This document shows positions 46,724-61,481 of a stretch of DNA of 64,000 bases, in pieces. The DNA lies in contig RIAZ01000009.1 in assembly GCA_003762615.1 (NCBI GenBank), positions 62,001-126,000 of the forward strand, read 5' to 3'. The translations under genes were made by a program, and so were the position numbers. How positions within the stretch are numbered: position 1 is the stretch's first letter; each line of letters begins with the position of its first letter. The notes under the pieces are model-generated. The model saw nothing but the letters and a program-made list of their open reading frames with translations, was not told the DNA's origin and searched no databases. Origin of the DNA: Muribaculaceae bacterium Isolate-037 (Harlan) (GTDB taxonomy: Bacteria; Bacteroidota; Bacteroidia; Bacteroidales; Muribaculaceae).

Positions 46724-47791
46724 TTAAATGAATCTTTTATACTTTTCTATCGATTCAATCGCAATTCTATCCCACGAAAATTCCTTAGATGCATCAATGG
46801 CATTTTGATTGTATTTTTTCCAATTTGCCGGATATTCCTCCAACATTTTCTTTATCGTTGATGCAATCTTTTCCGGTTCAATCTCCGTAATCCAACCACA
46901 ATCATACTCATCTATCACATCCGCCATATTTGTTTCCTTTGTTATTATACAAGGAAGACCATAAGACAAAGCTTCAAGTATACCCATTGGCATACCCTCG
47001 TATCTTGAAGTCAGTATAAAAATATCTGAATCTTTGAATGCTCTTATCTTTGCTTCGCCGTAAGCAGTCCCATAGAAATCAGCAAACCCCTCAAAACCAT
47101 GAATAGACTCTTTAAATACGTCAATCTCATTCTCATGACCATTACCATAAAAAGAGAAATGCACCTTATCCTGTAATCCATCCTTATAAAGAATCTGAAC
47201 TGCCTTTATTAATTTATCCAATCCTTTATGATGGATTTTAATTCGACCTAAATATAATATATTTATCTTATTAAAATCCTTATTTTTATTTACATTTGAT
47301 AATTCTGATTTAGGACAACCATTAGGTATAATTATCGCATTTGGATTAATATCCTTTACTATTGAATTGTCATATTCAGCTTTATTCAAATATATTATCG
47401 CATTCGCTTTTTTTATGAACCGATTATAGAGCAATAGATTCGCAATCCTTTTTTTAATGTAACTTTTTTTATAGTTATCTCTACTTAATGCGCCATGAAG
47501 TTGTATGAAATAAGGAATTCTAATACCATGCAAAAAAGAATAAAATCGAATATATTCTTTTTTATACAATGAATGAAATACACATATATCGGGTTTAAAT
47601 GATTCTACTATTTTTCTAAAGTTACTTAAATTCTGCACCTCAATGAATGAAGGCAATGGCTCTTTTTTATGTATCACAGTCAAGGTGAGAACATCTTGTC
47701 CTACTTTAATTTGCGCTTTAGATAAATTTAATAATACTTGCGTAATACCATTTGTCTCACTTGAGACATTCCCTATGTGTAAAATCTTCAT
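46724..47791 (-). CDS. glycosyltransferase family 4
   Basis: 355 residues with two Rossmann halves; the C-terminal donor site is [20 protein letters not shown] and [20 protein letters not shown], ending in a conserved acidic pair region typical of GT4. It transfers a sugar from a nucleotide donor with retention. Codon use is very AT-rich, as in the rest of the central locus. Confidence 0.88.
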
Positions 47792-47841
47792 AGCAAATTA
47801 TAAAATATAGTACTTTATTATCGTAATAATCCAAGCATAAT

Positions 47842-47903
47842 AAGTTGATAAAATTGTTGAAGTTGTAATACATCCATTACGACTTCAACAATTTCACCAA
47901 CTT
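47842..47903. repeat. long hairpin between two glycosyltransferase genes
   Basis: Arms of 28 nt (47842-47869 and 47876-47903) pair at about 25 positions around a 6-nt loop. One arm is inside the last codons of the upstream gene. There is no T run on the operon strand, so it may be a pause or processing site and not a simple terminator. Confidence 0.6.
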
Positions 47904-48905
47904 ATGAATTACTCTCAACAAAAATATATTATCACTATAATCTTTCTGTCTCCAATACCTTATATAATGAAATGGAATAGCTTTAACAGTTTCATTTTCC
48001 ATTAATTGATATAACTCCGGAAATTGATTTGCCAATATCCCATCAAATTCCTTCAAATTTGCATACTGGACAGTGTCTCCAATCTTAATCAAACATATAC
48101 GATATAATGAAGGCGTTTTTTCGCGCAATCTATACTCAAGGTATTCTTTATGGTATAAAGATATCTTATCCTTATGTTCAGAATAAATCTGCAATAAATG
48201 CTTCACAACAAACATTGTTTGACCTACAGCTTTCTGACTAACCGAAGTATTTACAGTTTGACCTTCCCTTCCTATCAAATATTTATATATAACCTTTCCA
48301 TAAAATGAGACAGTCTCCACTTTTGTCATTGGAAGAAACATCCACTCCATATCTGTATATGAGACTCCTTCAGTTTGAACATAAGCTATATTTCTAAAAA
48401 CATTTCTATTATAAGTGACCGAATGCATCTGAAATTCCGGAATCGAGATACGTAAAAGAACATCCTTAAATAGGAAAATAGTCAAATCATTCTTTAGAGA
48501 AAATCGATTTTTCTTAGTTGTTATTCCAGATTCATTTACAATGTCGTAATCGCTTACAACCAAGTCAACATCTACTTTAGAAAGATAATCTATAAACTCA
48601 TCTAAGTTACTTTTTTCAAAACTATCATCGGCATCCAGAACTTTAATATATTTACCGACTGCCTCTTTTAATCCCCTGTTTATACACGATCCATAATTCC
48701 CATTGGATTTATCAATAACCCTAATACTTTGAGGATATTTTGTCTCGTATCTTCTACCAATTTCCAATGTTCTGTCCTTGCTTCCATCATTAATAATTAA
48801 GATATCAAGACTATCTATCTTTTCCACCAATAATGAATCAATACATTGTGGAAGATACTTCTCCATATTATAGGATGGTATTATTATTGACAATATCTTC
48901 TTCAT
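47877..48905 (-). CDS. glycosyltransferase family 2
   Basis: 342 residues. GT2 signs are LSIIIPSYNMEKYLPQCIDS, INDGSKDRT and YIKVLDADDSFEKSN. The C-terminal part is longer and helical. It adds one sugar of the repeat unit. The gene lies 2 bases downstream of glf. Confidence 0.87.
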   Translation of the reverse strand: MKKILSIIIPSYNMEKYLPQCIDSLLVEKIDSLDILIINDGSKDRTLEIGRRYETKYPQSIRVIDKSNGNYGSCINRGLKEAVGKYIKVLDADDSFEKSNLDEFIDYLSKVDVDLVVSDYDIVNESGITTKKNRFSLKNDLTIFLFKDVLLRISIPEFQMHSVTYNRNVFRNIAYVQTEGVSYTDMEWMFLPMTKVETVSFYGKVIYKYLIGREGQTVNTSVSQKAVGQTMFVVKHLLQIYSEHKDKISLYHKEYLEYRLREKTPSLYRICLIKIGDTVQYANLKEFDGILANQFPELYQLMENETVKAIPFHYIRYWRQKDYSDNIFLLRVIHKLVKLLKS

Positions 48906-48907
48906 AT

Positions 48908-50038
48908 TTAATCAAATAAATTTAATACTTTAGATACAATTGGAGCCATATCATAGTACTTATACTCAGCAAGTCTTCCGCCAAAAATTATTCCTTGCTC
49001 TTTATATGCTAAATCTTTATACTTTAAAAATATAGCTTGATTTCGAGCATCATTTACAGGATAGAACGGTTCCATACCATCTTTCCATTCTGTTGAGTAT
49101 TCTCTGGATATTATTGTATGAGGATTATCATAGACCGCATTACCGAAAGTCTCAAAATGCTTATGTTCTATGATGCGGGTAAAGGGGACATTGGCAGATG
49201 TATAGTTCACAACTGCATTACCTTGATAGTTTGGGTTATCAAGTATCTCGGTCTCAAAACGGACGGTGCGGTATTCAAGTTTTCCAAATCTATAACCATA
49301 GTACTCATCTATCTTACCAGTGAATACAACCTTATCTGCCATATCCATCCATTTCTCTCGATTATTGAAGAAATCAACATCAAGCATCACATCAGAACCC
49401 TCTAAAAGTCCATCTATCAGTTTATTGTAGCCTCCTATCGGTATGCCCTGATACGCATCATTGAAATAATTATTATCAAAAGTAAGACGTACAGGCAAAC
49501 GACGGATAATAAATGCAGGTAATTCATTACACGGACGACCCCATTGCTTTTCCGTATATCCCTTAATCAGCTGCTCATAAATATCCCTACCAATTAATGA
49601 AAGAGCCTGTTCTTCAAGATTCCGGGGTTCAGTAATTCCATCCGTCTTCATCTTATTGACAGCATCCTTTCTCTGTTCCTCTAATTTACAGGCAGCTTCT
49701 TCCGGAGTTTTGACTCCCCACATCTGATAAAACGTATTCATATTAAATGGCAAATTATAAAGTTTGCCATCTGGAGCTTGCGCAACCGGACAATTAGTAT
49801 ATCGATTAAATGGAACTATTGAATTTACAAAATCCCACACTCTCTTATCCGAAGTATGAAAGATATGGGCACCATACACATGCACATTTATATCTTCTAT
49901 CTGTCGACAATACAAATTTCCACCGGAATGAGACCGTTTTTCAATGACAAGACATCTCAATCCCTTTTTGTGCGCAAGATAAGCAAATGTAGCACCGAAT
50001 AATCCGGCACCCACAATCAAATAATCGTATTCTTTCAT
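48908..50038 (-). CDS. glf: UDP-galactopyranose mutase
   Basis: 376 residues. FAD-binding YLIVGAGLFGATFAYLAHKK, then the family segments HVYGAHIFHTSDKRVW, GYTEKQWGRP and RFETEILDNPNYQGNAVVNY. It converts UDP-galactopyranose to UDP-galactofuranose, so the polymer should contain galactofuranose. Four-base overlap with the upstream GT2 gene. Confidence 0.95.
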   Translation of the reverse strand: MKEYDYLIVGAGLFGATFAYLAHKKGLRCLVIEKRSHSGGNLYCRQIEDINVHVYGAHIFHTSDKRVWDFVNSIVPFNRYTNCPVAQAPDGKLYNLPFNMNTFYQMWGVKTPEEAACKLEEQRKDAVNKMKTDGITEPRNLEEQALSLIGRDIYEQLIKGYTEKQWGRPCNELPAFIIRRLPVRLTFDNNYFNDAYQGIPIGGYNKLIDGLLEGSDVMLDVDFFNNREKWMDMADKVVFTGKIDEYYGYRFGKLEYRTVRFETEILDNPNYQGNAVVNYTSANVPFTRIIEHKHFETFGNAVYDNPHTIISREYSTEWKDGMEPFYPVNDARNQAIFLKYKDLAYKEQGIIFGGRLAEYKYYDMAPIVSKVLNLFD

Positions 50039-50946
50039 TTTTTGAGTTTTAAAAGACTCTGTATTTTGAGTTTCAGAAACTTAAAGAATATAGTATTCAT
50101 TGAATAATCATATTTCTTTATAATTCCTTTTAATTTCTTTAATTCATTCCAATTTGATTGTTTTATACATTTGATAAATGGATTAAAAATAAGTGAATCA
50201 AAAATTCGTATATTTTTTTCTTCCAAGAATCGGTTTTTTTCCGCAAAAACATCTACTGCAAGTTCCTGTTTAGACCAATCTGATGTTTTAGAAACTGAAT
50301 TAACACGATTTGTTATAATATAAGCAACAGTGTCTTCTATAATAATATCCTTACAATAAAAGCTTATAGTATAAGAAAAATATGTATCATTATGAACTCT
50401 ACACTCTCTAAATCTTATATTATTGGAAGTTATAATTTCTCTTTTTATTATTCTGCACCAAGGTTCTCCAAATAAATACCTTAAATTAAGTAATCCTTTT
50501 TCTGAATCTAATTTAAATAAATCAATATACTTATTTAAGTGCGTTGATCTATTCGATAATTTATAGGAAACATCATCTAAAGACAATGCGTTAAATATCA
50601 CCATGTCAGCATAAGATTCTTTATACTTATCCAAAATCTCGTTTAGAGAGGGTAGAAAAAAATCGTCAGCATCCGCAAATATTACATATTTTCCAATTGC
50701 TTTTGATAAACCTATATTTCTGGCTAATCCACCACCTCCATTATATGGAGTGGTATAATATTCCACATATTCAAAATTTTTCCGAATATAATTTAGAAAA
50801 TCTATCCCTTCCTGTGGCGAGCAATCATCTACTACAATAATCTGAAGATCCACTCTTCTTGGTATCGATTGCAGCAACCTGACAAGTCTGGATGGGATAC
50901 CATAGTGAGGAATTATTATCGTGAACGTATACTTATGTTCATCCAT
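50035..50946 (-). CDS. glycosyltransferase family 2
   Basis: 303 residues with FTIIIPHYGIPSRLVRLLQS, VVDDCSPQEG and YVIFADADDFFLPS. It probably transfers galactofuranose or another sugar, given the adjacent glf. It starts one base after the stop of the wzy remnant, so it was originally coupled to wzy. Confidence 0.87.
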   Translation of the reverse strand: MDEHKYTFTIIIPHYGIPSRLVRLLQSIPRRVDLQIIVVDDCSPQEGIDFLNYIRKNFEYVEYYTTPYNGGGGLARNIGLSKAIGKYVIFADADDFFLPSLNEILDKYKESYADMVIFNALSLDDVSYKLSNRSTHLNKYIDLFKLDSEKGLLNLRYLFGEPWCRIIKREIITSNNIRFRECRVHNDTYFSYTISFYCKDIIIEDTVAYIITNRVNSVSKTSDWSKQELAVDVFAEKNRFLEEKNIRIFDSLIFNPFIKCIKQSNWNELKKLKGIIKKYDYSMNTIFFKFLKLKIQSLLKLKK

Positions 50947-50947
50947 A

Positions 50948-51107
50948 TCAAAATAAACTTTTTAATTTCATACTACCTGAACAAAATTTTTTAAATGAGA
51001 AATCACACTTCATCAATCCCCATATAAAAAAAAGGAAATAGAACAAGGGATAAAAAGCACGCATTAATGGTTCCACGCAACATTGCAATAGAATTGTTAT
51101 TATTATC
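50948..51107 (-). pseudogene. 3' remnant of the wzy polymerase gene
   Basis: When the IS and one copy of the 9-bp duplication are removed, the frame of the gene at 52329-53428 continues for about 50 codons (CCVEPLMRAFYPLFYFL, then IWGLMKC) to TGA at 50948-50950. This restores a normal O-antigen polymerase C-terminus with a final membrane segment. Confidence 0.85.
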
Positions 51108-52328
51108 TTTAGTAGATGACAAAAATTAAATTTATGCTGTTAAACACTTAATTTTTAGTCGATTAAATTTGCAAAAGTCCCTGAAAATTAGTAATTTAAA
51201 GGAAAAGTTTGGACGCTTTTTCTCATGAAAACTACTAATTTCAAGGACTCGGTCAAAGTTAACCAAATCCTCCCGATTATGCAAGAGCACTTTGGTCAAA
51301 GTATGAATTTGGCACGCATAAAACTCATGGCGTTGCTGCTCCATGCACTCTGTGTGGTGCAGACTGTCAGCCTCCACAAACTGGCTGATGCGATGCCTAC
51401 GGCTGTAGACAAGGATTCCAACCTCAGACGGCTCCAAAGATTCTTTGCCAAGTATGTACTTGACCTTGACATCATAGCCCGTATGATTTTCTCGCTGCTT
51501 CCTGTCAAGACCGGTCTTGTGCTGAGCATGGACCGGACCAACTGGAAGTTCGGGGAGTTCAATATAAACATCCTTATGTTGGGCATAACCTATAAAGGGA
51601 TTGCCTTCCCTTTGATATTCAGCCTTCTTCCGAAACGTGGCAACTCCAACTGGGAAGAACGCAAGAAAATTATGGAACGTTTTATCCGTCTTTTCGGAGC
51701 GGAATGCATCGACTGCCTTGTGGCAGACCGCGAGTTCATCGGAAAGGAATGGACAGGATGGCTCAACAGCCGTCGCATACGGTATTACATCCGAATACGT
51801 CAGAACTTCTGGATTGTCAAGCCTTCCACCGGTGAGAGAATCCGAGCCTGGTGGCTGTTCAATGATTTGAAGGTCGGTCAGGAGAAATTCTTCCATACGC
51901 TCTTTCTTCACAAAGGTGAGTATGTCTATCTTGCCGGCAGCCGGATCAAAAACTCCGATGGTGTTCCGGAATTGCAGATTCTCATATGCTTCAATCGGCC
52001 CGAGGAGGCGATTTTGACATACAAAAAACGATGGGAGATAGAAACGGCCTTTAGAGCCATGAAATCTTCCGGCTTCAACATCGAGGATACCCATATGCGT
52101 GATATGGACCGCATCGCAAGACTTGTCGCGATGGTCTGCATGGCTCTTGTATGGGCGTATCTCGTTGGTGAACATAAAGATATAAATATTAAACCGATAA
52201 GGATTCTGAAACATGGAAGAAAGGCAAAGTCGCTTGTCAAATATGGATTGGAAGAGATTTCGACCATACTTATGCGTCCGACTTATACCCCAAAATTCGA
52301 TGTTTTCAAATTTTTGTCATGTACTTAA
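51108..52328 (+). mobile_element. IS4-like insertion sequence, copy 2 (1221 bp)
   Basis: Same length and ends as copy 1, opposite orientation. Flanked by a 9-bp direct repeat ATTATTATC at 51099-51107 and 52329-52337. It is inserted in the wzy gene. The matching target duplication on both sides shows that no recombination with copy 1 has happened since insertion. Confidence 0.94.
51225..52328 (+). CDS. IS4-family DDE transposase, copy 2
   Basis: 367 residues, identical to the transposase at 26683-27786, with the same DDE residues. It is antisense to the interrupted wzy gene. Its antisense reading frames are also identical in the two copies, so the DNA must be nearly or fully identical. The start ATG is 117 bp from the left end. 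Confidence 0.94.
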   Translation: MKTTNFKDSVKVNQILPIMQEHFGQSMNLARIKLMALLLHALCVVQTVSLHKLADAMPTAVDKDSNLRRLQRFFAKYVLDLDIIARMIFSLLPVKTGLVLSMDRTNWKFGEFNINILMLGITYKGIAFPLIFSLLPKRGNSNWEERKKIMERFIRLFGAECIDCLVADREFIGKEWTGWLNSRRIRYYIRIRQNFWIVKPSTGERIRAWWLFNDLKVGQEKFFHTLFLHKGEYVYLAGSRIKNSDGVPELQILICFNRPEEAILTYKKRWEIETAFRAMKSSGFNIEDTHMRDMDRIARLVAMVCMALVWAYLVGEHKDINIKPIRILKHGRKAKSLVKYGLEEISTILMRPTYTPKFDVFKFLSCT

Positions 52329-53428
52329 ATTATTATCAAAAATATATAAGCTTTATAAAATGTAGGTATATATTTATCCTTACGTAGAATATTTAAATTT
52401 TTAAAAAATCTAAATGTTATGATAAACAATAGAATAAAAGCAAAATATCCACTATCAATGCCTGCGTCCAACCAAATATTATGAGCCATCACATATCGAC
52501 CTTCATACCATAATCCCTGACTACCAAATGGATGTGTCAATATATACATAGGAGAACTAAGCCATCTGCCAATTCGACCGCCACCTGTAGCTGCACCACC
52601 ATTATATTCATTAATCTCTCTTGCAGCAAAGCCATCAATAACAGATGTCACCAAAACACTATCCTTAAATTGAATATATATAACAATTAGAAAAAACAAT
52701 AATAATCCAATTGTTTTAAATATTTTTTTAGAATCTAAACCATCCCAAAAATAACCTATTATCAATGATAGAACGGCCATCAATATTCCCGTTCTATTCA
52801 ACAAATGTAATGTTGAAAGCAAGGCAAATACAGAAAGAATCACGACTAGGAATTTAAACTTTCTCTCAAAGGAATCTTTCGTTCTAATAAATAACATTCC
52901 AATTCCTCCAATTGCCATAGAAAGCATTGAATTATGCTGAGTTGCAGGAACTACACCTTCCAAATCAATACCGTCCTCCCCGGCAATTGATCTTGTAGCA
53001 TTCACGATTGCACCTGTCTCTACATAATCAAATAAATTATTTACAATAGACCATATTGCAAAACAGAAAACAAGTGAAAATAACACTATTATTACAGTAA
53101 TCGGATGCGTACATCTTTTACATATGTATATACCGGATTCATACATTACCAACGGATAAAATAAATGAAATACGATAACCGAAGTTGCAGGTCTATTTGG
53201 ATGTAATAATCTGAAAAAAGTATATGACAAACTAAATAAAATAATCAAACACGCATTCTTATCCAATCTATAAGTTCCATAAATCCAACATAGGGGCAAC
53301 AAGAGAATCCATAAATATAAAGCATAACCATTTAAAATTTGAGGAATTGCACCTATCAATAGAATAGATAAAAACAACCAATTTTTTTCTAAATCAATCT
53401 TATATTTATATTCTAAGACTTGACTCAT
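52325..53428 (-). pseudogene. wzy: Wzy-type O-antigen/exopolysaccharide polymerase, interrupted
   Basis: 367 codons remain before a stop provided by the IS end. It has about ten hydrophobic segments (LFLSILLIGAIPQILNGYAL, VIIVLFSLVFCFAIW, TIGLLLFFLIVIYIQF) and a large loop containing GGRIGRWLSSPMYILTHPFG, as in Wzy/ligase proteins. The natural gene covered 52329-53428 plus the remnant at 50948-51098. Loss of about 50 C-terminal residues and the last helix probably abolishes polymerisation. Confidence 0.85.
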
Positions 53429-53467
53429 TCTTTTAAAAATTCAATAAAAACAAACGAGTTTAAATTA

Positions 53468-55000
53468 TTATTCAAAAAATTTTGAATAATACTTTCTTTT
53501 AACAATATCGCTAATATAACTCCGTTCAACTTTTGTCAACCCAATCAAATAAATAAGAATCAGAAAGGTCAATAATGAACATAATCCATATATTATCAAG
53601 CCAATAATATCGTGTGTTACGATTTGGTAATACATATATGCAAAACCTGTTGCAACGACAAGACATGGAATACTTCTTAAATATACTCGTCTAAGAAATA
53701 AACTATAACTAAAATTCACAACTTCATGCAGAAGAATTAATCTTGCAACCAGTGCAATTATTGCCATAATAATTCCGACAAACATCACGCAGTAGGGGTT
53801 TCCTCCAAGCTTAAGCCACAACCATGACAACGGAATGTTTGCAATCATGATTATAGATATAACTATCTGGAATTTTTTTATCTTTCCTGTAGCCTGAAGT
53901 GACGTGGTGATTGGACTTACCACGCAATCTATAAGCGACATTATCAGACCAAGTTGCATGAATCCTATTATCAATGGGGTTATCTCGTCAAGCCATAATG
54001 CAAGAATTGTAGGGGTACAAACAACCAAGGGAACAACTACTATTGACATCAAGATAAATGACAGACGGCATCCATTATATAGCAACTGAACCATTCCCTC
54101 AATATCTCCAGACGCATATTTCTTTGTTATCTGCGGATTTATCGCCATTGTAAAGTTGGAGGCAAAACCATTTATCACTCCGCAGACCTGTGTGGAAATT
54201 CCTTTGGCAGCATTGACAGCTACATTGAAAAACATATTCAACAATATGTTAACACCCTGATCCCTTACCGAAAATCCCATGTTTCCGAAGAAACTCCATC
54301 CGGCAAATGAGAACATATCCCTTATAAGTTTCTTATCTTTGAATTTCCTAAACCGACACTCCTCAAAATGATATCTGCAATATAAGGAATACATGAGTCG
54401 CATGACTCCTGACACGCATAGAATCAATATAGCGTAAACAACCAACCGATCTCCCGGTAGAACAACCACCAACAGTACAGCTCCAAGTTTCAGCAAAACT
54501 TCTATTATTCCAAAATATCCGTATATCTTCATGTGCTCATGAGCTACAATACAGGCATTATACGGAACACTGACAATATTTATCATGAAGGCAGCTATGG
54601 AACACTGATACACCCAATTGGCAGCATACATCCTCGCCTCCGGTATATTCATTCTTACATTGAGGAACCACAATCCAATGCTTTCCGCAAGAATTAATAT
54701 GCCGATAGCCAAAAACACATGAACTACTACTGAAATAGAGAATGTTTTCTGAAGTCCGACCTTATCACCTTTTCCCAATGCGAACGAGATAAACCGCTGA
54801 GATGAGGCTATCATTGCATTATTCAGGAATGCAAACATCAACACTATACCTCCGACAACATTATAAATACCGTAGTTGTCAATTCCCAACACTTTCCACA
54901 GCAATCGAATTGTGTAGAGATTGACAGCAATCGACACAATCATCCTAAGGTAAAGGAACATTGTGTTCTTTGCTATTCTTTTATTGTCAACAGAAGGCAT
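53468..55000 (-). CDS. wzx: Wzx-type flippase (polysaccharide transporter)
   Basis: 510 residues with 12-14 predicted membrane segments of the MOP/MATE type, beginning NTMFLYLRMIVSIAVNLYTI and including YGIYNVVGGIVLMFAFLN. It moves the lipid-linked repeat unit across the inner membrane. It precedes wzy in the operon as usual. It is apparently intact. Confidence 0.92.
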   Translation of the reverse strand: MPSVDNKRIAKNTMFLYLRMIVSIAVNLYTIRLLWKVLGIDNYGIYNVVGGIVLMFAFLNNAMIASSQRFISFALGKGDKVGLQKTFSISVVVHVFLAIGILILAESIGLWFLNVRMNIPEARMYAANWVYQCSIAAFMINIVSVPYNACIVAHEHMKIYGYFGIIEVLLKLGAVLLVVVLPGDRLVVYAILILCVSGVMRLMYSLYCRYHFEECRFRKFKDKKLIRDMFSFAGWSFFGNMGFSVRDQGVNILLNMFFNVAVNAAKGISTQVCGVINGFASNFTMAINPQITKKYASGDIEGMVQLLYNGCRLSFILMSIVVVPLVVCTPTILALWLDEITPLIIGFMQLGLIMSLIDCVVSPITTSLQATGKIKKFQIVISIIMIANIPLSWLWLKLGGNPYCVMFVGIIMAIIALVARLILLHEVVNFSYSLFLRRVYLRSIPCLVVATGFAYMYYQIVTHDIIGLIIYGLCSLLTFLILIYLIGLTKVERSYISDIVKRKYYSKFFE

Positions 55001-55066
55001 AGGTATCGTAAATGTTCAATTTTGACGTGTGGGTCAGGAGAAAGGGATTCAAAGGTAAACCCACTG

Positions 55067-56033
55067 GTAAACGTCCTATTTTGACGTATAGGTTAGGAGA
55101 AAGGGCTTCAACGCCCCTTCTCTTAATTTTTGTCAAAAAATTAGATTGTTTTTAATTTTTGTTAACACTAATTCCGATGGTCATCGGCAGTAACTGACCA
55201 TAGTTCCGGTTGCCGTTAACTATCTCTCGGAAGAGTTTCTTGAGATAATCTAGCGCTGATATCCCATACATCCGACAGGTGGAGACGAGCGTGTAATATG
55301 CCGCCGAGGCCCTTGCCATCTTGTGACTCCCGAAGAATAGGGAGTTCTTTCGTTTTCCATATATTTACCACAAATGACACTGGGATCGCAGAGATTTTTT
55401 ACTTTTTTCTCCGTGATCTCCGAGAACTCTGTGGTTGTTCCACTACAGAAGCGTCTGACAGAGCCTTCCTAAGCTCGGCAATAAGCCTGTCCTGCTCCGC
55501 GAGTCTATTGTCCTTGATACGGTTGGAGGCCAGCAACTCATTCATGCCCCTCAGAAGTTCATCCATTTTACGGCTCATCCCCTCTGTCCTGGCTCGATCT
55601 TCCCTGGCAACAGTCTCCGCTTTAACAGCTCGATGTTCCAAAGCCTGAGCCTGCTCCCTTGAGTCTTCGAGCATCTGTTGCAGGAGTATGATCAGTTTTG
55701 ATTTCTCGTCTGGACTCATTGCTGAATATGGATTATCAAACGGCTCCGGAGTGGTTTCCCAGAGTCGGAGTCGAGATAAAACCACCCTTCACTGTTACCG
55801 GTACAACCATGAGCCGTGTATCAGTATACCACTTGTCAAACAGGTTGTACGGCACGTTGTTCTTTTTACAGTATGCCTGTATCGACACTCCCCGTGGCAT
55901 TGCCTCGGCCATATAGCCGACATAGAATCTTTCACAATTGAGTCACTGTACATATTTTGCGAGTTAAAAATTTGTCAGTGCAAAGATAGGGCTTATTCCT
56001 TAGCAATGCCATACGTCAAAATTGGACGCTTAC
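55067..56033 (-). mobile_element. IS66-family deletion derivative, copy B (967 bp)
   Basis: Ends are GTAAGCGTCCAATTTTGACG (from 56033 leftwards) and GTAAACGTCCTATTTTGACG (from 55067), facing inwards. A third similar end, GTAAATGTTCAATTTTGACG, lies at about 55009. The catalytic part of the transposase has been lost, so the element cannot move by itself. It sits between UDP-glucose dehydrogenase and wzx. Confidence 0.8.
55152..55785 (-). pseudogene. IS66 transposase remnant (TnpC-like)
   Basis: An N-terminal piece of 128 residues (55399-55785; coiled coil with EQDRLIAELRKALSDA) and a C-terminal piece of about 64 residues (55152-55346; FFGSHKMARASAAYYTLVST, then YGISALDYLKKLFREI) match the two ends of an IS66 transposase of about 500 residues. 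The DDE core between them is missing. Confidence 0.75.
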
Positions 56034-56108
56034 ATGGTGATGAATATACCCTATTATAAATTTAGGATTATCTATTTTGCGCAAGCTGGAAACTTGCTTT
56101 CCCAGGCG

Positions 56109-57416
56109 TTAGTCACGGGAGAAAAGGTCGCGGGTATAGACCTTGACAGCGACGTCTTGGAGTTCTTCGCTTGTGCGATTGGCGAGGATAGCTTGGGAGA
56201 GTCGCTTAAATTCTGCAAGGTTGTTGACCACGCGGCTGCCGAAGAAGGTGGAGCCATCTTCAAGCGTGGGTTCATAGATGATTACGGTTGCCCCTTTTGC
56301 TTTGATGCGTTTCATCACGCCTTGTATTGAAGACTGACGGAAGTTGTCACTATTGCTCTTCATGGTCAGGCGGTACACTCCTATCACACAGTCCTTTTCG
56401 TGTGTGGAACCGAAAGTGTTCTGTTGTGTATAGTCGTACCAACCTGCCATTTTGAGCACTTGGTCAGCAATGAAGTCCTTACGTGTGCGGTTGCTCTCGA
56501 CTATGGCGGTCATCATCTGTTGCGGCACGTTGTCGTAGTTGGCGAGGAGTTGTTTGGTGTCCTTGGGTAGACAGTAGCCACCGTAGCCGAAGGAGGGGTT
56601 GTTGTAGTGGGTACCGATACGAGGATCAAGTCCAATACCCTCGATGATTGCCTGTGAATCAAGCCCCTTAACCTCTGCGTATGTATCAAGTTCATTAAAG
56701 TAGCTGACGCGGAGGGCAAGATAAGTGTTAGCAAAGAGCTTGACAGCCTCCGCCTCCTTCATACCCATGAAGAGGGTCGGGATATCCTCCTTTATTGCCC
56801 CCTGCTTTAACAAACCGGCAAATTCTCGTGCCTTAGCCTCAAGATAGTTCACATCCGCAACCTTCCTTATCGCATCATTCTCCTCCATGAACTCTTCCCT
56901 GTCTATCATCTTGGGATAACCTACAATTATTCGGGAGGGATATAGATTGTCGTAGAGAGCCTTTGACTCGCGGAGAAATTCCGGTGAGAAGAGGAGATTG
57001 AATTTCTTGACGCCCTTGGCGGCGTATTTTATGTAGAGGGAACGGCAATAGCCAACGGGGATGGTTGACTTGATGACCATGACAGCATCGGGATTGACAC
57101 TCAGAACGAGGTCAATCACATCCTCAATACAATGGGTATCGAAGTAGTTCTTGACCGGGTCGTAGTTAGTCGGTGCCGCGATCACGACAAAGTCAGCATC
57201 GCGATAAGCATGCGCGCCATCAAGGATTGCAGTAAGATCCAAATCCTTTTCCGCGAGATATTTCTCAATGTATTCATCCTGTATGGGTGACTTACGGTTG
57301 TTGATGAGTTCCACTTTTTCGGGAATCACATCCACGGCTATTACCATATTGTGTTGAGCGAGAAGAGTCGCTATACTAAGGCCTACATAGCCTGTGCCTG
57401 CTACTGCTATTTTCAT
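56109..57416 (-). CDS. ugd: UDP-glucose 6-dehydrogenase type enzyme
   Basis: About 435 residues from ATG 57416, where [20 protein letters not shown] gives the Rossmann motif directly. The catalytic Cys lies in [15 protein letters not shown], and [20 protein letters not shown] is typical. It oxidises UDP-glucose to UDP-glucuronate, giving an acidic sugar for the polymer. It is the first biosynthetic gene after the regulator. Confidence 0.92.
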
Positions 57417-57757
57417 AATGTGATGAAGCCCCAAGTCAGTCTCTACCCCACTAAAGGGGGAAGGTGAGGTGACGGGGAGGGAATTGTATTTGATTGGGAT
57501 TTAATTTCTTTTTCTTCTTTTGTTTCTTCGTGTGAGGATTATTCTCTGTGGGCTTGGCGGTCTTTGCGGTTTTAGCTTTGGTTTCGCGCTTCGCGCTCAC
57601 ACTTGAAACAAAACGGCTGCGCGGCACATCTATGCCTTGACTCATCTGCCCTCCAAGCGGTCATGCCGGTGGATTTGCGCAAGCAGGGAAGCTTACGCTC
57701 CCGGTTTCGCTCCTCTTTTAGTAGGATGGGAGGAGGTAGGGCGCTGTAGCTCCCCCT
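57417..57757. repeat. gap with dispersed repeat copies
   Basis: The gap between the regulator and the dehydrogenase gene holds the second copy of the 41-bp repeat (57582-57622, core TCGCGCTTCGCGCTCACAC, inverted to that at 35457-35498) and, at 57750-57767, the 18-mer CTCCCCCTTTAGGGGGCT. The 18-mer recurs at 59981-59998. A 64-codon Lys-rich ORF on the minus strand is not convincing. Confidence 0.6.
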
Positions 57758-59302
57758 TTAGGGGGCTACGTCCAAGGCGAGGGCGGTCGCGGTAGCTACG
57801 ATGGTGAAGGTGGTGTGGGCGAAGCTGAGGAGGTAGACGGGTTCGGTGCCCTGTTTTGTCTTGATGTCGACGATGGTGGCTTCGCGGCCTTTGAAGGGTC
57901 CGGTGTGGATGATCACTTTCTGGGATTTGGCGAACTCTTTGCAATGGGCGAGGATCCATTCCTCGCGGTCGACGAGGTCCACGTCGTCGCGGAAGTCGCG
58001 GAGGGCGACCTGGAAGAGTTCGAGTTCGTGCTGGGGCACGATGGCGAAGCGACGGGTGCGGCTGACGCGGAGTACGGAGGCGTCGCGACGCAGGCTGTCG
58101 ACGAGCATGGCTTCCATGGGGTTGCCTCGGAAGAAGATGAAGCGGCTCACGGCGGAGGATTCGTGTCGGCGGTCGTCGTCAAGGTCAGTCGGGTCGTAGA
58201 GTCGGCGCATGGCGTCGGTCTCGGTGCCGAAGATGCCGGAGGCGGCTATGTGACGGCGGAGTCGGTCGCCACGGAAGGTGGTGGAGTAGCTGCAGAGTAC
58301 GTACCAGTTCTGTTCGAGGAATCCGGAGATGCTCTTGTCGGGGTTGTTGAGCCGGAGGAGTGTCTCGGTGGGTAGTTGGGAGAGACGGTCTTCGGCGGCA
58401 TAAGTGAGTGCCGACTCGATGTCGTCGGCGGGTGCTCCGGTGGCGGCTGCCACGGTGAGCCATTCGCCGAGGAGGGTCGAGTGGTTGCCGAGTCCGAAGC
58501 CTTCACGGAGGAGCCATTTGCGGGCACGTGCCGTGATGCGCTGTGCCTTGGCTGCAATCTGCTCGTCGGTGTCGGTGTCGCTGACCACGCTGAAGAGGTG
58601 GTTGCCGGCGGTGCAGATCTTGCCTTCGTTGTGCATTCGGGCGAGGGAGAGGGCGACTGCCGGGACCGGGAGGCTTCTGCCGTACTTCGGCACGAAAATT
58701 TCTGAGGGAGCTGAAAATTCTGTGGTTTTGAGGCGGATGATGGCTTCGACGTCGAGGCCGTAGAAGAAGAGTCCGAAGAGGACTATGAGGGCGGCGCGTG
58801 CCTCGGTGATGCTTTCGCGGAGCCGGCGCTGTGCGGCGGGATCGTCGGGCTGCCGGGTGATGCCTCGGTTGGCGAAGAGCCATGTCAGACGGCGTGCCAG
58901 TTCGCAGGTTTCTTCCTGTGTGTTCAGTTCGATGGGTATCGGGGTCTCTGCCTTCATGTCGAGATGCCAGACCTCTTCGCGGAGCCGGATGAGTGCATCG
59001 GGTATGGGGTCGTAGTTGGGTATGAGCCTCATGCGCATTGCGCGGCGGAGGGTGCTCCGCAGGCGTTCGACGCACTCGTTGGAGACGGTCGGGCTGTAGC
59101 TACGGACTGTCCCGTCGGTGAGTGCGGTGCCGTAGCCGATGACGAAGGGGGTGGTCTGTGCGAGTCTCATGTCGATGTCCTCACCGTGGCAGTAGTCGCG
59201 CAGTGAGTTGGTGAACTGGCTGATCTTGTCGAGGGTGGCACGTGACGTATTTTTCGGTAGCGCGGAATTTTGTAAATCTATGTATGATAGAAGTTTCGGC
59301 AT
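57758..59302 (-). CDS. UpxY-like antiterminator: recombinase-like N-terminus fused to NusG (NGN-KOW) domain
   Basis: 514 residues. From about 332 there is a full NusG N-terminal domain (NWYVLCSYSTTFRGDRLRRH, SRFIFFRGN, RFAIVPQHELELF) and at 465-490 a KOW element (KVIIHTGPFKGREATIVDIK). Residues 1-320 resemble a tyrosine recombinase: a helical core-binding-like start, then ARAALIVLFGLFFYGLDVEA where catalytic Arg would be (Asp here), VPKYGRSLPVPA, and NHSTLLGEWLTVAAATGAP where HxxR would be (Leu in place of Arg). The recombinase part therefore looks inactive. It is the first gene of the operon, like UpxY in Bacteroides capsule loci, and should let RNA polymerase read through the long locus. 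Confidence 0.75.
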   Translation of the reverse strand: MPKLLSYIDLQNSALPKNTSRATLDKISQFTNSLRDYCHGEDIDMRLAQTTPFVIGYGTALTDGTVRSYSPTVSNECVERLRSTLRRAMRMRLIPNYDPIPDALIRLREEVWHLDMKAETPIPIELNTQEETCELARRLTWLFANRGITRQPDDPAAQRRLRESITEARAALIVLFGLFFYGLDVEAIIRLKTTEFSAPSEIFVPKYGRSLPVPAVALSLARMHNEGKICTAGNHLFSVVSDTDTDEQIAAKAQRITARARKWLLREGFGLGNHSTLLGEWLTVAAATGAPADDIESALTYAAEDRLSQLPTETLLRLNNPDKSISGFLEQNWYVLCSYSTTFRGDRLRRHIAASGIFGTETDAMRRLYDPTDLDDDRRHESSAVSRFIFFRGNPMEAMLVDSLRRDASVLRVSRTRRFAIVPQHELELFQVALRDFRDDVDLVDREEWILAHCKEFAKSQKVIIHTGPFKGREATIVDIKTKQGTEPVYLLSFAHTTFTIVATATALALDVAP

Positions 59303-59453
59303 CGAAAAGCACTATAACCCACTTCGGGTTTTGAGGGTACACTTATTTTCCCCCTGACTACCTGTGGGTGTCGGGAGGAAAAATCGGGTGTTATGTCGTG
59401 GGGATTTTGGCAAGAGCTTGATTCTTAGGCAATCCCGTAGTGTAAAGAGTCCT

Positions 59454-59825
59454 TCTCTAATTTAGAGTGGGGCAACGTGGATTACATTGTTGATATTTAG
59501 ATAAATATATTTCTAGGAACCTAAAAATGGCAAACAAATGGGGCAAAATGGTCAACAAAATGCACCATGCTGGTCAACACAATCTATGCGATAATATTAT
59601 TCTGATATTTAATTGGGATTATCGGTAAAGGTCCAATGATGCAAGTTATTTACCTTAATCTAATAGTTATATAAATTATTAATTTTTAGAATATTATCAA
59701 AATATTATATTATTATGACCATATCATAAATTTATTAAAAAAAGAGAAATTTAATCGTTCTGAATTTGTATAATTCATGCGCGTTTATTAATTTTGCAAG
59801 CAGAAGCCCCACTCTAAATTAGAGA
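59454..59825. promoter_or_regulatory. candidate invertible promoter segment (372 bp)
   Basis: Bounded by perfect 20-bp inverted repeats TCTCTAATTTAGAGTGGGGC (59454-59473) and its complement (59806-59825). Each repeat has an internal dyad CTCTAA/TTAGAG, as recombinase sites often have. The segment is AT-rich, has no gene, and contains one consensus promoter near the right repeat. It lies about 150 bp upstream of the first exopolysaccharide gene, exactly where Bacteroides capsule loci have invertible promoters. Confidence 0.75.
59765..59796 (+). promoter_or_regulatory. consensus promoter inside the invertible segment, pointing away from the operon
   Basis: TTTG at 59765-59768, 20 bases, then TAATTTTG at 59789-59796 match the Bacteroidetes consensus perfectly. 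Transcription would run rightwards and meet a hairpin at 59868-59908. I find no TAnnTTTG on the minus strand of the segment, so the operon seems to lack its promoter in this orientation. Confidence 0.75.
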
Positions 59826-59867
59826 CGGGCAAAAATGGCAAACATTTTTTTAGTTCCCATTATAAAA

Positions 59868-59908
59868 AAAATTCCCCGGTATCTTGCGAAAAGATACCGG
59901 GGAATTTT
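59868..59908. terminator. terminator between miaB and the invertible segment
   Basis: An 18-bp perfect stem (AAAATTCCCCGGTATCTT and complement) with loop GCGAA. On the minus strand it is followed by eight T, so it ends the miaB transcript and insulates the switch; it can also stop the rightward promoter of the segment. Confidence 0.85.
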
Positions 59909-59915
59909 GCTTATA

Positions 59916-59980: not shown

Positions 59981-60069
59981 CTCCCCCTTTAGGGGGCTGG
60001 GGGGCCTATACTTTTAGGGGGCTGGAGCCTATACTTTCGGGGAGCCTATACTTTTAGGGGGCTGGGGGC
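59981..60069. repeat. tandem GGGGGCTGG / CCTATAC repeats
   Basis: Starts with the 18-mer CTCCCCCTTTAGGGGGCT also found at 57750, then three imperfect units of the type GCCTATACTTTTAGGGGGCTG up to the miaB stop. No gene is visible; it is a local repeat array. Confidence 0.6.
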
Positions 60070-61437
60070 TTATACCAGCTCTCCTCTCAGCGTCGCGCTG
60101 CTGGCGTCGAGGATACGCACTTTCACAAATTGTCCGGGATAGGTATCGCCTTTCGAGAACACCACGACCTTGTTCTGTGATGTGCGACCGAAATGCTCGT
60201 CGGCACTGCGTTTTGAGCGTCCCTCCACAAGCACTTCCATCTCTTTCCCCACGTCGCGACGGTTGCTCTCTTCCGACAGCTCGTTCTGCAATGCTATCAT
60301 ACGGTTGAGACGTTCGATCTTGACTTCCTCCGGCACGTTGTCGGGGAGATGCTTCGACGCGAACGTACCGGGTCGTTCGGAGTATTTGAACATGAAGGCG
60401 GAATCAAACCCCACCTCTCTCATAAGGCTCAGCGTCTGCTGGAAATCCTCCTCCGTCTCGTTGTGGAATCCGGTGAAGAGATCGGTGGATATACCGGCAT
60501 CGGGCATCACGCGACGTATCGCCGCCACGCGGTCAAGATACCATTCGCGAGTGTATTTACGGTTCATCAGTTTCAACACGTCGTTGCTACCGCTCTGCAC
60601 CGGCAGATGGATATGTCGGGCAATATTGGGATAACGCGCCATGGTCTCTATCGTGGCGTCGCACATATCCTTGGGGTGGGATGTGGTGAAACGCACGCGC
60701 ATCTCCGGAGCAGCCTTAGCCACCATCTCCAGCAATGCCGGGAAACGTGTCTCCACGCCGTGCTCATCCTTATAATTATAACTGTCGACGTTCTGACCGA
60801 GAAGCGTAACCTCCTTGAATCCCTTCGCACGAAGGTCGGCAAGTTCGCGGAGTATGCTCTGCGGCTCCCGGCTGCGTTCGCGTCCACGGGTATATGGCAC
60901 GATACAATAGGAGCAGAAATTGTTGCATCCGCGCATGATGGAGATGAATCCCCCTATCTTTGCAGACCCGAGACGACGCGGCATCACGTCGCGGTAGGTC
61001 TCCGTAGTGGAGAGATCGATATTTATGGCTTTCTCTCCGGTCTCGGCAGCGGCGATGAGATTGGGGAGATCGAGGTAGGCATCCGGACCCGCCACGATAT
61101 CGACACCATATTCATCGATGAGACGATGCTTCAGACGCTCCGCCATACATCCGATCACTCCTATTATAATATTGCGCCCGAGCTTACGGCGCAGGGCGTT
61201 CCAGTATGCGAGACGGGAATATATCTTCTGTTCCGCATTTTCACGTATGGAGCAGGTGTTGAGCAGCACGGCGGCAGCCTCGCGATCGTCGTCAGTAGTG
61301 GCATATCCCGCCATTTCCATCATGGCGGCGACCACTTCCGAATCAGCCACGTTCATCTGGCATCCGTAGGTTTCTATGCGCACTTTTTTAGAAAAAGTGC
61401 AATTTTCCCGGTTTTCGGGCAAAAAAAATGGTTCCAT
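60070..61437 (-). CDS. miaB: tRNA-2-methylthio-N6-dimethylallyladenosine synthase
   Basis: 455 residues. N-terminal UPF0004 domain (RIETYGCQMNVADSE with cluster Cys), radical SAM motif GCNNFCSYCIVPYTRGRE, and C-terminal TRAM domain (GQFVKVRILDASSATL). It adds the methylthio group to i6A37 in tRNA. ATG 61437 is used because the minus-strand -7 box at 61474-61481 puts the transcription start near 61467, downstream of the alternative ORF start at 61476. Confidence 0.95.
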   Translation of the reverse strand: MEPFFLPENRENCTFSKKVRIETYGCQMNVADSEVVAAMMEMAGYATTDDDREAAAVLLNTCSIRENAEQKIYSRLAYWNALRRKLGRNIIIGVIGCMAERLKHRLIDEYGVDIVAGPDAYLDLPNLIAAAETGEKAINIDLSTTETYRDVMPRRLGSAKIGGFISIMRGCNNFCSYCIVPYTRGRERSREPQSILRELADLRAKGFKEVTLLGQNVDSYNYKDEHGVETRFPALLEMVAKAAPEMRVRFTTSHPKDMCDATIETMARYPNIARHIHLPVQSGSNDVLKLMNRKYTREWYLDRVAAIRRVMPDAGISTDLFTGFHNETEEDFQQTLSLMREVGFDSAFMFKYSERPGTFASKHLPDNVPEEVKIERLNRMIALQNELSEESNRRDVGKEMEVLVEGRSKRSADEHFGRTSQNKVVVFSKGDTYPGQFVKVRILDASSATLRGELV

Positions 61438-61463
61438 ATTAGTATTGAATGGAATAATATCAG

Positions 61464-61481
61464 TAATTTTGTACAAATTTA
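61464..61481. promoter_or_regulatory. overlapping divergent -7 boxes for miaB and the CoA transferase
   Basis: Plus strand TAATTTTG at 61464-61471 (towards 61505) and minus strand TAAATTTG at 61481-61474 (towards 61437). Both match TAnnTTTG. The two start sites would lie within about 10 bp, so the promoters probably compete. Confidence 0.55.

Follow-up and report, generated by a model that had tools for sequence, protein, structure and literature searches.

A probable invertible promoter upstream of an exopolysaccharide operon

The 64-kb window (the whole stretch of DNA that was analysed) very probably carries an exopolysaccharide operon whose promoter is a phase-variable switch, which is the best explanation of the locus as a whole. 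The switch appears to be OFF at present, as the first-pass annotation had proposed, and support for that proposal comes from a paralog in which the junctions are swapped and from relatives in which the same geometry recurs both ways. The 332-bp intergenic segment (59474-59805, no strand assigned; opposite junctions in the paralog) is flanked by inverted repeats that are indeed perfect over 20 bp: the left repeat lies at 59454-59473 (+), with the core CTCT-AATTT-AGAG at 59455-59467, and the right repeat at 59806-59825 (-), with the core CTCT-AAATT-AGAG at 59812-59824. The 352 bp originally described as enclosed is the distance from start to start of the two arms. When extended to 59451-59473 and 59806-59828, the arms are 23 nt long and 96% complementary, with 332 nt between them, and the pair at 59454-59473/59806-59825 is the sole perfect 20-mer inverted pair spaced 60-1500 bp apart in the window. 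Internal dyads of the form CTCTAA-W-TTAGAG, also described at the outset, are present within the repeats. To our knowledge, the core motif of Mpi is absent from the window repeat.

Inside the segment, a promoter of full consensus, TTTG-N20-TAATTTTG, is found at 59765-59796 (+), with its TTTG box at 59765-59768 and TAATTTTG at 59789-59796, 9 bp from the right repeat. Recognised by consensus only, it points away from the operon in the present orientation. After inversion it would be placed, by predicted geometry, 9 bp from the left repeat (about 10 bp in the earlier estimate) and toward the gene at 57758-59302(-), where on its consensus it could serve the operon. The location and direction first assigned to this promoter hold, and its description as single is true of full-consensus sites only, because a weaker promoter-like site, TTTG-N21-TATATTTA at 59502-59534(-), faces the gene in the present orientation and may allow some leak. 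The motif AATGGYMAACA occurs at 59526-59536 and 59547-59557 within the segment and at 59834-59844 beyond the right repeat, all on the + strand; these are the only copies in the 64 kb (0.18 expected; three reached in 0/100 shuffles) and are candidate accessory or arm sites. Copies resembling AATGGYMAACA are present at the sister switches as well. The terminator predicted beyond the right repeat corresponds to a terminator-like hairpin at 59861-59915 (no strand assigned; 25-nt arms, 92%) in the interval between the switch and miaB (60070-61476, -), a flanking gene past the terminator and outside the switch. Between the terminator and miaB, at 59988-60068, there are short direct repeats that are rich in G, both TTTAGGGGGCTGGGGG and longer units.

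On the other side of the switch, a leader (59303-59453, -) precedes the gene for a 514-aa regulator, P0001 (57758-59302, -), in which a degenerate tyrosine recombinase part (about residues 1-310) appears to be joined to a UpxY-like part with a NusG-type domain and KOW (about residues 320-514). Downstream of it are exopolysaccharide genes (46724-57434, -), including several glycosyltransferases, a UDP-glucose dehydrogenase (56109-57434, -), a MatE-type flippase (53468-55000, -) and a UDP-galactopyranose mutase (48908-50038, -). In the mechanism that we propose, a tyrosine recombinase, most likely the one encoded elsewhere in the genome at C69:4987-6204 and acting in trans, would recombine the two CTCT-N5-AGAG cores and so invert the segment. 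The ON state would be the orientation with the promoter toward the gene, in which transcription would pass the leader and enter the first gene and the rest of the operon; in the OFF orientation, the one now seen, it would run into the terminator ahead of miaB. The first gene would encode a UpxY-like elongation or antitermination factor whose N-terminal half is a degenerate relative of the invertase family.

Sister switches and evidence of past inversion

A search for other repeat copies, recommended in the first-pass annotation, covered the 4.9-Mb assembly of 102 contigs that contains the window. This genome has six copies of the dyad CTCTAANTTAGAG, all at switch loci of like kind: two in the window, two at C69:6387/6756, one at C69:185307 and one at C52:262. 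Read backwards as a control, the pattern is found at three places, so the bare count is just twofold over the control; the feature that stands out at these sites is pairing, not the number of bare motifs. A paralogous gene follows each complete CTCTAANTTAGAG pair, and C52:262 too, giving three copies that are 100, 97 and 65% identical. The ON orientation is seen at C69:6387 and C52, and the OFF orientation in the window and at the inverton of a further fusion gene of this genome (C29). The additional CTCT-N5-AGAG pairs of this genome include, among the places listed, at least one in C24 (L140:3949-4147), adjoining a second recombinase gene, and one at C14:101154-101341 (sites 101154/101329).

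The window leader is matched in C52 over 148 bp (97.3%), and past the repeat the similarity resumes with the far end of the segment (126 bp, 84.9%). The right flank of the window is matched in C69 near 185 kb over 78 bp (91%), followed after the repeat by the other end of the segment (156 bp, 91%). Each of these swapped junctions lies within a single contig. The paralog thus shares the flanks and segment ends of the window with their connections exchanged, which shows that these repeats have undergone inversion. C69:185307 and C52:262 probably belong to opposite ends of a single switch that a 1,107-bp IS-like element has divided, because the first 127 bp of C52 repeat the end of the element exactly; C69 continues differently past the element, and for this reason we infer the single locus and do not count it as directly seen. 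The element lies within the sister inverton at L010:10229-11335 (contig C69) and L011:1-127 (contig C52).

The window switch could also be a fossil, one that inverted in the past and whose site or enzyme is now defunct, so that the operon would be silent or would depend on a weaker promoter. The interrupted sister inverton would fit such decay, as would the finding that the window locus is carried by 0/61 sampled relatives outside its own genome; a scan of the genome contig collection with the three own paralogs likewise returned zero relatives, the window lineage being absent from it. Decay is at odds, however, with 20-bp arms that are still perfect and a promoter of full consensus, with the finding of two sister loci ON and two own loci OFF, and with the recombinase gene beside the sister locus, which is open over 405 aa and retains the R, H, W, H and Y of its motif. 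A fossil therefore seems improbable to us, and a switch at which inversion is presumably still ongoing is preferred.

Core pairs upstream of regulator genes in relatives

The core pair recurs upstream of regulator-type fusion genes related to P0001. The sample comprised 86 such genes (51 named records, 29 from family genomes and 6 others), some of which were sampled twice because two collections contain them, 67 being distinct by their first 200 bp. When two CTCT-N5-AGAG cores were sought in the 1 kb upstream, with 12 of 13 matches asked, a pair was found at 32/86 fusion genes, representing 23 distinct invertons (23/67 distinct genes); allowing one mismatch in the arms added no further locus, leaving 32/86. 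The other 54/86 loci have no core pair in that 1 kb, some upstream regions being cut by contig ends, and ten of these further loci have a single core only; the coupling of inverton and fusion is accordingly not universal. The fusion genes L104-L106 and L108-L118 form a group without any detected core pair. Among plain UpxY-like genes, an author-chosen set of 21 taken from the family-genome list together with the own C20 gene, 1/21 has a core pair. The remaining 617,574 bases of these loci contain no core pair, and 50 rounds of Markov shuffles produced none.

Within each pair the five spacer bases are identical (32/32, with 13 of 13 matches found), and 21 different spacers occur among the 23 invertons. 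Strand exchange by tyrosine recombinases requires matching spacers, and identical spacers within the pair are what such exchange would demand. In 15/23 invertons the position is 151-176 bp before the chosen start codon. A strict promoter is present in 14/23 invertons and absent from 9/23; all strict promoters have the form TTTG (at least three of four bases)-N20-TAnnTTTG, with the -7 end 27-32 bp from the core edge in 12/14. Six of the 14 point toward the gene and eight away from it, with none doing both, and opposite orientations are thus found between species as well as between paralogs.

Short dyad cores of this kind are also bound by regulators, and singly the bare core is common, with 103 places genome-wide against 105 for the reversed pattern and hence no enrichment. 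A chance dyad or a regulator-binding site in place of a recombination site is nonetheless scarcely credible: that reading is already contradicted by the swapped junctions, which change partners exactly at the repeat, and it sits badly with spacers identical within loci and different between loci, and with promoters facing both ways at a fixed distance. Recombination sites are the preferred reading. On a tree of fusion genes (64 rows, 23 with an inverton) the presence of the inverton is clustered, yet it has often been gained or lost: it requires 14 changes, compared with a mean of 19.2 in shuffles, of which 5/500 were as low. Inverton-bearing fusions are found on both sides of the midpoint root. 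C52 was scored as lacking an inverton in this tree solely because the contig ends.

A candidate invertase

The search for an invertase, likewise advised earlier, led to a 405-aa tyrosine recombinase encoded at C69:4987-6204 (Pfam Phage_int_SAM_5, E 2.9e-17; Phage_integrase, E 3.6e-10). Its gene lies directly upstream of the sister inverton C69:6387-6768, which is followed by the sister fusion gene and sugar genes, and the same order of recombinase, inverton and fusion is found in L092 and L096 (2/51 loci). Residues K265, R353, H354, W356, H376 and Y385 are conserved in 32/32 recombinases, and the first Arg was not identified; with those among them that we take to be catalytic present, the C69 enzyme appears to be an active tyrosine recombinase. 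A CTCT-N5-AGAG pair is found at 14/32 of the recombinase homologue loci examined (2 own and 30 from the search of 42 genomes), and the other neighbours of the homologues vary, which suggests a general phase-variation enzyme family not confined to capsule loci. In L162:2717-2916, a recombinase and an inverton are followed by a 225-aa ORF that is NusG-like by eye.

From this linkage, a tyrosine recombinase family that includes the C69 enzyme is likely to supply the invertase of the window switch. The C69 enzyme would have to reach the window site in trans, which is assumed because most fusion loci have no adjacent recombinase gene. Homologues occur in 35/42 genomes searched, comprising 13/13 with an inverton and 22/29 of the others, and co-occurrence does not discriminate because of the latter. 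The genome of the window itself has 10 tyrosine recombinase matches, and the one in C24, 40% identical to the C69 enzyme, also adjoins a CTCT-N5-AGAG inverton. The window segment might hence be served by the C24 paralog, by another tyrosine recombinase or by a serine recombinase of the kind that inverts capsule promoters in B. fragilis (PMC4747536). Such a different enzyme is a minority prospect, though one to be taken seriously, as the sister switch adjoined by the C69 enzyme has nearly the arms of the window (23-nt repeat, 91-96%); the C69 enzyme remains our preferred candidate. The initial suggestion that the recombinase may differ from Mpi fits a tyrosine recombinase linked to the switch, Mpi being a serine recombinase (PMC4747536).

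The regulator is a recombinase/NusG fusion

The first gene of the operon appears, from sequence comparison and a predicted model, to encode a degenerate tyrosine recombinase fused to a NusG/UpxY part and not a plain UpxY. P0001 matches the UpxY model NF033644 with its C-terminal part only, at 29.7 bits, and so falls short of the curated cut-off of 100 bits for that family; four distant relatives reach 32.7-65.9 bits, and 0/6 matches in the own genome exceed the cut-off. A NusG N-terminal fold followed by KOW places P0001 in the NusG superfamily, the Pfam KOW match of 20.4 bits being under Pfam's own cut-off of 22.3. The N-terminal part has a weak Phage_int_SAM_5 match (E 0.044), which is clearer in relatives (8/13 members of A3, best 2.7e-9). 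At a threshold of E <= 1e-3, a profile of 32 recombinases matched 31/84 fusion proteins, the best at 2.1e-23 in a search space of 84 sequences, and in a profile-profile comparison residues 3-310 of P0001 aligned with recombinase positions 112-384 (probability 98.9, E 3.1e-17, 255 columns).

The predicted P0001 model has intermediate quality (pLDDT 70.9, pTM 0.56). Foldseek matched it to NusG (E 7.3e-4) and to the XerA recombinase (E 1.8e-3). VIA-align superposed the stretch 132-313 of the model on the catalytic domain of Cre over 157 residues (Z 10.8, rmsd 3.1), a Z near 10 being modest for a helical fold, and matched the C-terminal part to NusG/Spt5 chains. R353 and H354 of the C69 enzyme align with L278 and G279 of P0001, and the Tyr nucleophile is not aligned. 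Among the fusion rows, W281 is invariant (41/41), the RH dipeptide is found in none (0/41) and R is kept at that column in 10/41. The N-terminal half of P0001 lacks the catalytic R-H...H/W...Y set of active tyrosine recombinases, and because R-H is replaced by L278-G279 it is best read as a tyrosine-recombinase fold whose active site is not intact.

These fusions are widespread in Muribaculaceae. The proteins are about 450-620 aa long, compared with about 160-260 aa for the ordinary UpxY-like genes here, and the fusion ORFs at the 29 family-genome loci and in the named records, 459-558 aa in length, include Muribaculaceae, Duncaniella muris and Paramuribaculum among their labels. Other records carry older or uncertain labels (Porphyromonadaceae, Bacteroides, Alistipes and Clostridiales MAGs), and several of all these records share their loci with genomes from the family of the window, which would make that family Muribaculaceae. 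An order-wide search of 295 genomes at E <= 1e-20 gave matches in six genomes, the sole full-length one being the own C29 fusion; the remaining six matches, in five genomes of other families, cover the recombinase-like part only (profile 5-279, frames of 383-458 aa).

By analogy with UpxY, the fusion would act as an antiterminator of its own operon. Its degenerate half may, in addition, recognise the inversion sites and couple switching with antitermination. More specifically, and doubtfully, the dead half would bind the CTCT-N5-AGAG cores on which the invertase acts. One core would lie just downstream of the promoter in the ON state, and there the tethered fusion would be loaded onto RNA polymerase leaving the promoter; by occupying the cores the fusion would also compete with the invertase, so that the ON state would be held. 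Recognition of the cores by the dead half is the least supported step of the mechanism, because many fusions have no detectable inverton. That the recombinase-like half is a mere scaffold or protein-protein interface with no tie to the inversion sites has somewhat under even chances: the 54/86 fusions without a detectable inverton and the eroded catalytic residues would both be expected of it, but the fold has been kept across deep divergence with W281 invariant, and core pairs accompany fusions (32/86) and not, with one exception in 21, the chosen set of plain UpxY-like genes. If core binding by the dead half were true, there would be a physical link between an antiterminator and a site of DNA inversion, providing a new recruitment route for a NusG-type factor and a new phase-variation feedback, spread through Muribaculaceae.

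Relation to known phase-variable systems

An invertible promoter before an exopolysaccharide operon is a known kind of switch, represented in B. fragilis by Tsr19 and Mpi (PMC4747536, PMC3090145). Tsr19 (BF2766) is a tyrosine recombinase described there as inverting a local EPS-operon promoter and a distant promoter (PMC4747536, PMC3090145), and the window switch resembles this EPS/large-capsule switch in its putative tyrosine recombinase and its invertible exopolysaccharide-operon promoter. It differs in that it occurs in another bacterial family, that the first gene of its operon encodes a recombinase/NusG fusion and that the core CTCT-N5-AGAG is common to several sister switches, the two systems being set apart here by description and not by repeat sequence. 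In the Mpi/FinA system, invertible promoters precede capsule operons that start with a UpxY-type regulator, with upxY/upxZ genes (PMC3090145, PMC4747536). The likeness lies in an invertible promoter ahead of a capsule operon with a UpxY-type first gene, whereas the enzyme linked here is a tyrosine recombinase. With RfaH, LoaP and UpxY, the NusG paralogs, the fusions share a C-terminal NusG-type domain with KOW and a polysaccharide operon, and they differ from them in their recombinase-like N-terminal part.

In the hCom2 survey of gut Bacteroidota inverton groups, UpxY genes are enriched, as regulatable genes, beside invertons with the Bacteroidota promoter motif, invertases are enriched near invertons and 114 inverted-repeat motifs are reported (PMC11892184). 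Its main text does not mention Muribaculaceae (PMC11892184). A search of the open-licence PMC literature, outside which inverted-repeat motif supplements fall, found no Muribaculaceae capsule inversion, CTCT-N5-AGAG class or recombinase/UpxY fusion. Muribaculaceae are a major family of the mouse gut, and invertible capsule promoters are well studied in Bacteroides; the CTCT-N5-AGAG site, the candidate invertase family and the unexpected regulator architecture together make capsule phase variation in Muribaculaceae directly testable.

Leaders of the fusion genes

The leader between the switch and P0001 contains CAGGGGGAAAATAAGTGTACC at about 59336-59356, which resembles a short element before other fusion genes. 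Some 35-60 nt ahead of the start codon, the leaders of these genes have a conserved sequence similar to CAGGGGGAAGAGAAGAATTGT that might serve as a loading element. Of 24 distinct leaders, 7 contain the pattern GGGG[AG]A[AG], and variants such as GGGTCGGGAAGA are seen by eye in others. A conserved leader hairpin, CCTCTGT/ACAGGGG, was considered and rejected, its covariation being not above that of shuffles (score reached in 119/500; pairing in 203/500). RNAalifold predicted zero pairs on the fusion-gene leaders, and folds of single leaders range in z from -2.27, in the window, to -0.26.
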